64,000 nucleotides of DNA. It comes from Phycisphaerales bacterium (GTDB lineage Bacteria > Planctomycetota > Phycisphaerae > Phycisphaerales > SM1A02). The stretch lies in contig JAKVBX010000001.1 in NCBI GenBank assembly GCA_022446795.1, forward strand, positions 151,357 through 215,356. Reading direction: 5' to 3'. Positions 59,700 through 61,717 of the stretch are shown one piece after another (position 1 is the first letter of the stretch; every line of letters begins with the position of its first letter). Position numbers and translations under genes: made by a program. Below the pieces are notes generated by a model that made no database searches, was not told where the DNA came from, and saw nothing but the letters and a program-made list of their open reading frames with translations.

Positions 59700-59915
59700 A
59701 TGCTGGTTATTACGCGACGAGAAGGTGAAGAGGTGGTTATTGGAGACCCCGCGAACCCCATAGGGATCGTGCGGGTGGCCTCGGTGAAGGGTGATCGGGT
59801 TCGGCTCGCGCTGAACTTCCCCCGCGACGTTGAAGTGCATCGTCGCGAGGTGGCAGACCAGATCGCCTCGGAGAATCCCACGGTCGTGGGCAAGATTCGA
59901 CCCGCCGGCAGCTGA
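59700..59915 (+). CDS. csrA: Carbon storage regulator CsrA
   Basis: The 71-residue product has the CsrA fold: MLVITRREGEEVVIG, IGIVRVASVKGDRVRLAL, PRDVEVHRREV. CsrA binds GGA motifs in mRNA leaders to control translation and stability. The ATG at 59700 has AGGAGG at ideal distance. The flagellar partner FliW is not in the window. The next 415 bases carry no protein gene. Confidence 0.96.
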   Translation: MLVITRREGEEVVIGDPANPIGIVRVASVKGDRVRLALNFPRDVEVHRREVADQIASENPTVVGKIRPAGS

Positions 59916-59930
59916 ATCTTCTGACATATG

Positions 59931-59968
59931 AAAAAAGTTCGTGACGTGTGGTGGGACACGCCACGAAC
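59931..59968 (-). terminator. Intrinsic terminator on the minus strand
   Basis: GTTCGTG (59937-59943) pairs with CACGAAC (59962-59968), and an inner CGTGT/ACACG extends the stem to 12 bp with one A-C mismatch around loop GGTGGG. On the minus strand TTTTTT follows immediately. It must end a minus-strand transcript coming from the mraZ side; on the plus strand it has no T run. Confidence 0.8.
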
Positions 59969-60330
59969 CGGGAAGGGGTAGCCGAACTGACCCGTGGGGT
60001 CGTTCGGCTTCGTGAGGAAGCGTGACCGTTTCCGGAGGGAAGCGGTGCACGCATGTCCCGGCAAGCGGGACGAGGTGGCAGGTCCGCAACGCCGTCCATG
60101 GCGTTGAGGGGGGAATCCTGCCGAGTCAGCAGGCCATCCGTGGCCCGCATGCTCTTGATCCGGGGAGAACCTGGCCCGGGCCCTGTTCCAGGGGGCCCGC
60201 GGCCGTCCGTTTCGACCTCCCCAAGCCATCCTTGGCCCGGTGGTGCGGTGATCGAAGGCCGGCCTCCGTGCCGGCGGCATGGCCAGGGCCACACCCGAAT
60301 CTACTGAATGTCCAGCCGCCCCCGCGGCGG
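59931..60330 (-). ncRNA. Candidate structured RNA or long 3' UTR between mraZ and csrA
   Basis: This 400-base stretch has no supportable protein gene but many strong hairpins: AGCCGAAC..GTTCGGCT with inner GACCC/GGGTC (59980-60009), ACCGTTTCC/GGAAGCGGT (60025-60046, one G-T pair), GTCCCG/CGGGAC (60055-60071), AACGCC/GGCGTT (60088-60105), CCTGC/GCAGG (60117-60133), CGGGCCC/GGGCCCG (60177-60199) and GCCGGC/GCCGGC (60258-60275). A minus-strand intrinsic terminator closes it. RNase P RNA, tmRNA and SRP RNA signatures were looked for and not found. It may be an independent small RNA or the 3' part of the mraZ transcript. Confidence 0.4.
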
Positions 60331-60804
60331 TCAATCACCTCCTTGGCCACGCTGGCGAGCCAGGGCTCGCCTCGCGCGCATCATGATCTCGGCTTGTTTT
60401 GCCAACTTCTCGTCGCGTCGCTTCGCCCAGGCGGTGGGATCTCGCAGTTCGAGATGGTCCTTCACGCCGAGGATGACGATGGTCGAGTCCAGGTTGGCCA
60501 GTTTCAGAAGTCGCTCGGGAATCCGGATCCGTCCCGCCGAGTCCAACTCGACGCGGGAAGACTGGCTGTACAGGAGTTCCTCGAACTCCAGTAGATCCTC
60601 GTCCGGAAGCAGGGATTGTTCCGAGGTCGTGGCCAGGGTCTCGAAGGTCTTCTCCGGCCACAGCCACAGGGAGGCATCCGTTCCCGGTGCCAGGTAGAAC
60701 GCTTCGCCGTGTCGCGCGGGATCCAGCCGTGACCGAATCTCCGATGGAATCGCGACGCGATGCTTCGCGTCGATCGTGTGCTCGTACTCGCCTGTGAACA
60801 ACAC
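60331..60804 (-). CDS. mraZ: Transcriptional regulator MraZ
   Basis: The 157-residue product has two SpoVT/AbrB-like MraZ repeats: FTGEYEHTIDAKHRVAIPSEIR and VELDSAGRIRIPERLL. MraZ forms ring oligomers and represses its own operon, usually the division/cell-wall cluster. Here no rsmH or fts genes follow; the downstream 400 bases look non-coding. The GTG at 60804 has AGGA 8 bases upstream; the longer frame runs through the promoter region. The C-terminal 20 residues are basic (RARRALARQRG). Confidence 0.93.
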   Translation of the reverse strand: MLFTGEYEHTIDAKHRVAIPSEIRSRLDPARHGEAFYLAPGTDASLWLWPEKTFETLATTSEQSLLPDEDLLEFEELLYSQSSRVELDSAGRIRIPERLLKLANLDSTIVILGVKDHLELRDPTAWAKRRDEKLAKQAEIMMRARRALARQRGQGGD

Positions 60805-60838
60805 GCATCTAGTCCTCGCCCCAACTGTCCGGAACGTT

Positions 60839-60855
60839 ACCCCACAACGCCCCAC
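60839..60855 (-). promoter_or_regulatory. MraZ box (two TGGGG repeats)
   Basis: On the minus strand TGGGG-CGTTG-TGGGG occurs 36-50 bases before the mraZ start, exactly the TGGGN-5-TGGGN pattern known for MraZ binding, with a degenerate TGTTG one step further upstream. Additional TGGG words lie at 60880-60904 without the 10-base phase. A TAAAAT word upstream may be the -10. This points to autoregulation. Confidence 0.7.
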
Positions 60856-61111
60856 TTTGCAACACATTTTAACCTTATCCCCCATCAACCCACCCCAAAA
60901 CCCACCCGAATCCCCTGGGATTGCGTTATCCGGACGTAAGAGGGTCAGTCGGGGACGACGTTATCGGTCACTTCACAAGACCTTGCAGCGACTTGGCCCC
61001 CAGACTGGAATCAATCCAAGCACGGGTTGAATTTGGGCGCAGACTTAACGGTGTCACCAGGGTGCCTGGTGAGAGAGTCTGGGCTGAACCACCACACCGA
61101 GGACTGTCGAA
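60856..61111. other. Divergent promoter region between mraZ and the NGH-tail gene
   Basis: With the MraZ box this makes a 307-base gap between the two genes. It holds further TGGG words (60880-60904, minus strand), an AATCC/GGATT hairpin, and a 7-bp hairpin CACCAGG-gtg-CCTGGTG at 61055-61071 in the probable leader of the plus-strand gene. GAGGA lies about 15 bases before that gene's ATG. No further gene was seen. Confidence 0.5.
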
Positions 61112-61717
61112 ATGGACGCATCGGACGCTGCCCATATCGATCCTGCCATTTCCGCGGCACTGCCGCAGGGGCTGTTCCTGATGACCGCCGCATCGGATGA
61201 TGTCCGATCGGGGTTCATCACCCGCTGGGTGCAGCAGTGCGGCCGAGTCCCCTTCCAGGTCAGTGTCGCCATTCCCCGTGGCACATCGATCGAGCCACTC
61301 CTCCGGGACAGTCGACACTTCGCCCTCTGTGGGCTGCAGGCGAATGATCGTGTCATCCAACGCCGATTCGCAGACACGCCCACCAGGCAAGAGGATCCCT
61401 ACGTCGGTCTCCAGTGCTTCAGCGATGCCAGCGGATCCCCGATCCTCCAGCGATCTCGGTTCTACCTGGACTGCGAACTGGTCGGCCACCTGGCCATGGA
61501 ATCAGACTGCCGGATTTACATCGGACAGGTCCTCACCGCCAGGATGCTCAATACGGAAGAACTGGCGGTGACCACCAACGGGCATGCGAATGGTCATGCG
61601 AATGGTCATGCCAATGGCCACACGAATGGTCATGCCAATGGCCACACGAATGGTCATTCCAATGGCCACACGAATGGTCATTCCAATGGCCACACGAATG
61701 GTCATGCCAACGGCTGA
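61112..61717 (+). CDS. Flavin-reductase-like protein with repetitive NGHx tail
   Basis: The 201-residue product has a flavin-reductase-like (FMN-binding split-barrel) domain in residues about 10-155: [40 protein letters not shown], and a C-terminal GQVLTARM. Residues 156-201 are eleven perfect four-residue units NGH(A/T/S) plus NG. The tail is hydrophilic, likely disordered, and could bind Ni, Zn or Cu by its 11 His. FMN binding is inference from the fold. The gene ends 9 bases before the convergent glycosyltransferase. Confidence 0.78.
61577..61714 (+). repeat. 12-base tandem repeats coding NGH(A/T/S)
   Basis: Eleven 12-base units in frame code NGHA, NGHT or NGHS; many form a 24-base higher unit (aatggtcat-gcc/tcc then aatggccac-acg). 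All units preserve Asn-Gly-His while the fourth residue varies. The low sequence divergence suggests recent expansion by slippage. Confidence 0.93.

Follow-up and report, generated by a model that had tools for sequence, protein, structure and literature searches.

The window analysed here, a stretch of 64,000 nucleotides, derives from the Phycisphaerales (Planctomycetota). The named near relatives of its source are for the most part known as metagenome-assembled genomes, several of marine origin. Two convergent genes, mraZ on the minus strand (60331-60804, with an assumed GTG start and the stop codon at 60331-60333) and csrA2 on the plus strand (59700-59915), flank a gap at 59931-60330. The element described below fills this gap on the minus strand, downstream of mraZ; it begins with the first base after the stop codon of mraZ and closes with the T-run of an intrinsic terminator. 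It is supported by folding, a six-genome alignment, covariation and the lack of a conserved ORF. Elsewhere in the window, at 61570-61717, in-frame tandem repeats encoding an 11-letter protein sequence form the C-terminus of an ORF, possibly a slippage-prone tail.

The minus-strand RNA has a folding energy of -215 kcal/mol, with a z-score of -5.3 against dinucleotide shuffles, compared with -3.2 for the plus strand. This bears out an earlier description of the stretch, made from the sequence alone, as highly structured. No Rfam family, including RNase P RNA, tmRNA, SRP RNA and 6S RNA, matched the element in scans with Rfam and ARAGORN, and the earlier failure to find signatures of the first three thus holds. 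An ORF of 282 aa on the minus strand, with a TTG start and a good Shine-Dalgarno sequence (AAGGAGGTGATTG), was rejected as a gene, as same-genus relatives have stops in all three frames. Because the ORF is not kept in these relatives, the element is considered non-coding, in agreement with the sequence-only reading, which had seen no supportable gene. A near-perfect Shine-Dalgarno sequence, AAGGAGGTGA, is also present at the end of mraZ (60335-60344, minus strand). It is largely kept in the genus with no conserved ORF behind it, and could be a further CsrA site.

The intrinsic terminator (59931-59969, minus strand) consists of a stem of 13-14 bp (59969-59936) followed by T6 (59936-59931). Its earlier identification was confirmed, with 14 pairs, and no other intrinsic terminator was found on either strand of 59880-61150, including between mraZ and the RNA. 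The element is therefore non-coding and ends in an intrinsic terminator, as do RNAs of the CsrB/RsmZ class, and, like 3' UTR-derived small RNAs, it lies directly 3' of a coding gene on the same strand with a common terminator. The terminator is invariant within the genus and recognisable in other genera of the family, and the CCCTTCCC block that precedes it likewise extends to other genera. Directly ahead of the terminator is an unpaired pyrimidine block, ACCCCTTCCC (59970-59979, minus strand), that is kept across the alignment. A second conserved unpaired pyrimidine block, GCTTCCTCA, lies at 60013-60021 on the same strand, also ahead of the terminator. The two blocks might serve as an RNase E site, like that of CsrB, or provide a seed complementary to Shine-Dalgarno sequences (anti-Shine-Dalgarno).

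The minus strand of the element contains 13 GGA words, four of which occupy ANGGAN hexaloops closed by 6-7 perfect base pairs. From 5' to 3' these are hairpin 1 (60258-60275; gccggc-ACGGAG-gccggc, 6 bp), hairpin 2 (60221-60240; ccgggcc-AAGGAT-ggcttgg, 7 bp), hairpin 3 (60129-60148; gcgggcc-ACGGAT-ggcctgc, 7 bp) and hairpin 4 (60087-60106; caacgcc-ATGGAC-ggcgttg, 7 bp, inside an outer stem), with the loops ACGGAG, AAGGAT, ACGGAT and ATGGAC. RsmE, a CsrA homologue, recognises the ANGGAN hexaloop in its NMR structures (PMC7652899). In 464 kb of the genome, 37 ANGGAN hairpins with stems of at least 5 bp were found on 928 kb of strand, a background of 0.016 per 400 nt even with the window's four counted in. 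By a Poisson estimate, the chance of four in 400 nt is below 1e-8. No other 400-nt stretch in the 464 kb holds more than two, and the element is the densest cluster. The plus strand of 59931-60330 has 8 GGA words and not a single ANGGAN hexaloop. Several GGA words in hairpin loops characterise sponges of the CsrB/RsmZ type, and here the four hexaloops are both conserved and strand-specific.

These results alter the earlier argument about a sponge. The sequence-only reading had counted about eight plus-strand GGA words as reminiscent of CsrB; the count is right, on the wrong strand. It had doubted the likeness because the GGA words were counted on the plus strand while the terminator served the minus strand. 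That doubt falls, since the hexaloops share the strand of the terminator, and the suspected direction was correct, with minus-strand ANGGAN loops far beyond chance. The plus-strand GGA tetraloop (60034-60037) offered as a further hint found no support; it is the complement of a minus-strand hairpin of non-CsrA type.

Genomes of the same genus align along the full length of the element. In an alignment of six of them, the RNAalifold structure keeps 92.5% of cells paired, a figure that is favoured because the structure was derived from the same alignment. Two-sided changes occur in 27 of 104 pairs, compared with 13.9 in shuffled alignments (0 of 500 reach 27) and 5-7 when the partners are slid. 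The stems are retained by compensatory changes among the genus relatives, and the proposal thus passed the comparison among relatives that the earlier reading had set as a way to refute it. All four hairpins fall within this covariation structure: hairpin 1 is helix 4, with two-sided changes in 6 of 6 pairs, hairpin 2 is helix 6, hairpin 3 is helix 8, with 100% of cells paired, and hairpin 4 comprises helices 9 and 10.

In six of six sampled families of the Phycisphaerales, hairpins of this kind occur immediately downstream of mraZ and on its strand. Stem sequences vary from genus to genus and the loops are retained. Across 50 distinct mraZ-csrA2 loci, the mraZ strand carried 100 ANGGAN hairpins and the opposite strand 2, while the remaining 63 loop triplets, at the same loop position in the same loci, averaged 0.84 with a maximum of 5. 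The locus counts include related genomes, so the hairpins counted are not independent events. A gggtgAAGGATcacct match in the mraZ coding region, encoding GVKDHL, accounts for a handful of the 100 and is to be subtracted, and one match among the relatives, at L015, is spurious. A relaxed search for NNGGAN with a stem of at least 6 bp gave 108 hairpins on the mraZ strand and 7 on the other. Of the 108 on the mraZ strand, 103 have A as the first loop base and 88 end the loop with T or C. The preference for A was not built in, because the search required GGA but not A, and its place two bases ahead of GGA agrees with the RsmE recognition loop ANGGAN. A second, independent measure counted hairpins with A.GGA in RNAfold minimum-energy structures within 500 nt downstream of mraZ (within 900 nt at one locus). 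It yielded 83 against 1 in 35 mraZ loci that represent six families of the order.

The same bias extends to other orders of the class, with 41 hairpins against 0 in 42 loci. The signal fades outside the class, where 27 mraZ loci gave only 5 matches, some probably within coding sequence, and an extension to the whole phylum is not supported. The number of hairpins ranges from none to seven across genomes, and number and spacing are too variable between genera for one global model. Two hairpins with ANGGAG loops, about 100 nt apart, were also seen in and near the start of an ORF at L151 (5560-5690, minus strand), genome G000 (contig C1, near 301.6 kb); this pair is a candidate CsrA-regulated mRNA.

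Where mraZ has no csrA beside it, the hairpins are still found 3' of mraZ, and where csrA2 has no adjacent mraZ its surroundings lack such hairpins. Linkage to csrA was therefore rejected as a defining feature, since csrA2 apart from mraZ has no sponge; by its placement among these genomes, the element tracks mraZ and not csrA. A promoter-like site, TTGCAA-N17-TAACGT, precedes mraZ at 60834-60862 on the minus strand, with two GTGGG boxes N5 apart within its spacer. It is kept in near relatives and is the sole promoter-like site seen for the unit. Upstream of mraZ, GTGGG-N5-GTGGG boxes are present at 55 of 79 loci, whereas 800 kb of background strand contain a single such pair. In E. coli, MraZ acts through TGGG repeats to repress its own promoter, and the box-bearing site is likely an MraZ autoregulation site. 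A simple sigma-70 consensus scan, which also missed the mraZ promoter, found no sigma-70-like promoter within or just behind mraZ. Because the only promoter-like site seen, with its MraZ-type boxes, precedes mraZ, it appears most likely that mraZ and the RNA form one MraZ-regulated unit.

The protein encoded by csrA2 belongs to the CsrA family and has 71 aa, intact RNA-binding ends (MLVITR and VHRRE) and a 4-residue insertion. Its match to a solved CsrA (E 8e-10) identifies it, by sequence, as a real CsrA. CsrA genes were found in 60 of 61 relatives, most of which carry two, and FliW in 57 of the 61 as well as in the source genome, beside CsrA1. The CsrA1 gene adjoins fliW and a flagellin gene, and its product has asparagine at position 55 (by count), the FliW-binding residue of CsrA (PMC13407953). 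The matching residue of CsrA2 is asparagine in the genus and mostly lysine or another residue elsewhere. The csrA2 subfamily is further set apart from CsrA1 by its 4-residue insertion and a conserved C-terminal IRP motif. The only CsrA in four genomes that lack fliW is of the lower-scoring CsrA2 type, and clear sponge hairpins are present in at least three of the four (G010, G022 and G032). In family f5, most genomes have one CsrA match, of the high-scoring FliW-linked type, and one, G064, retains three hairpins. This weakens the idea of a sponge exclusive to CsrA2, and such a pairing is not established because f5 also has the RNA.

Taken together, the minus strand of 59931-60330 probably encodes a CsrA-sequestering sponge RNA that is carried as the mraZ 3' UTR. 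The earlier suggestion of a new small RNA or a regulatory mraZ 3' UTR is thereby supported in part: its direction was right. We infer from the sequence that the RNA is transcribed, binds CsrA, acts in trans and is linked to MraZ. It would be transcribed with mraZ from the mraZ promoter as a long 3' UTR ending at the terminator, and then either be processed free or be left attached to the mraZ mRNA. Each ANGGAN hexaloop hairpin would offer a high-affinity site to one RNA-binding face of a CsrA dimer. With four strong sites, one RNA could therefore hold roughly two dimers, and weaker GGA sites might accommodate more. Production of the RNA would pull CsrA2, and possibly also the FliW-linked CsrA1, away from target mRNAs. 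Given the MraZ boxes in the promoter, the level of the sponge should follow MraZ activity, which would tie a cell-division regulator to the Csr circuit. Counting against the sponge reading, four strong sites make a small number compared with the 22 GGA of CsrB, though one similar to that of RsmY/Z, and the number of hairpins differs widely among genomes. The stems of 6-7 GC-rich bp are also more stable than those of most SELEX ligands, which have four or fewer contiguous base pairs (PMC7652899).

The evidence for a sponge would serve equally well if the RNA came from a separate small RNA gene driven by a promoter of its own, located within mraZ or immediately downstream. A small hairpin after the mraZ stop in the genus alignment could mark the 5' end of such a gene, but the admittedly weak scan found no sigma-70-like promoter there, the 3' end of mraZ shows no rise in third-position identity, and in some genomes the first hairpin starts at the mraZ stop itself or less than about 20 nt away; we regard this arrangement as unlikely. 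Somewhat less probable still is that CsrA binds the mraZ 3' UTR and acts in cis on the stability or termination of the mraZ mRNA, with no sponge involved. In favour of this, the RNA and mraZ stay linked across the whole order, and the scan found no separate promoter. However, several strong sites over 200-400 nt, variable in number and position, suit titration better than a single cis switch, and the sites lie a long way 3' of the mraZ start codon, so that the usual block of a ribosome-binding site cannot apply.

In genomes outside the order, rsmH often comes next after mraZ, and in several of these the gap between the two genes contains such hairpins, some of which cover the start codon of rsmH. 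The hairpins could thus be functionless remnants, in the source genome, of a CsrA-controlled rsmH leader from an ancestral mraZ-rsmH order. Against this, rsmH lies elsewhere in the order and such hairpins are absent as a signal upstream of it (2 on the same strand and 1 on the other in 22.8 kb), while behind mraZ loops and stems are retained, the latter through compensatory changes; we hold decay of this kind to be very improbable. High GC and many palindromes might also suggest a GC-rich repeat or structured element unrelated to CsrA, such as a terminator cluster or REP-like sequence. Among 64 loop triplets, however, GGA alone is enriched, with A two bases ahead and on a single strand, and because stem sequences differ among genera the element is no dispersed repeat, which leaves this explanation with scarcely any probability. 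In three class-level relatives (L259, L264 and L308) the ANGGAN hairpins between mraZ and rsmH overlap the apparent start codon of rsmH, which suggests that CsrA controls translation of rsmH in other orders of the Phycisphaerae. It is no more than a fair guess that the sponge originated as a CsrA-bound mraZ-rsmH leader that was turned into a free RNA.

A broader model can be put forward only tentatively, and we think it rather less probable than otherwise: a class-wide, MraZ-controlled sponge in the mraZ 3' UTR would work beside FliW, with FliW acting on the flagellar CsrA1, which has N55, and the sponge on CsrA2, and would descend from a CsrA-bound mraZ-rsmH leader, tying cell-division control to Csr. 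The Planctomycetes have been suggested to use FliW instead of sponge RNAs (PMC4682653, PMC13407953), and whether FliW and sRNAs act jointly on CsrA in any species remained to be determined in a 2020 review (PMC7652899). These genomes appear to carry FliW, a sponge and two CsrA paralogues, which makes the question of joint action testable here. The mraZ link suggests an unforeseen wire between cell-division control and carbon or lifestyle control. It also suggests that CsrA sponges arose here independently, out of an untranslated region of an mRNA.

No CsrA sponge in the Planctomycetota or in an mraZ setting was described in the open PMC literature searched, and RNAs of the CsrB type have been described principally in Gammaproteobacteria (PMC4333381, PMC4682653, PMC13407953). 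The window RNA resembles CsrB/CsrC and RsmX/Y/Z (Gammaproteobacteria, Rfam clan CL00106) in carrying several ANGGA hairpin loops on an RNA of about 400 nt, an intrinsic terminator and an unpaired stretch directly ahead of it. It differs from them in its link to mraZ, its MraZ-box promoter, its place in the Planctomycetota and the presence of FliW in the same genome. The CL00106 models (CsrB, CsrC, RsmX/Y/Z/W) gave no match in the window, and the best in relatives was RsmW with 32.6 bits of the 52 needed (E 0.1). Predicted CsrA-binding RNAs with GGA loops outside the Gammaproteobacteria are TwoAYGGAY (RF01731) and Bacillaceae-1 (RF01690) (PMC4333381). Just two of the four window loops fit AYGGAY, these motifs come from other phyla and their function is only predicted, and the RF01731 covariance model did not reach its gathering score in the window or its relatives. 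UpsM, an abundant sRNA in the mraZ 5' UTR of Rhodobacter sphaeroides, is, like the window RNA, tied to mraZ transcription (PMC5089854). Unlike the window RNA, it lies upstream of mraZ and is bound by Hfq, and no CsrA-sponge role has been described for it. FliW shares with the window RNA the part of a CsrA antagonist, predicted in the case of the RNA, and plays it as a protein.
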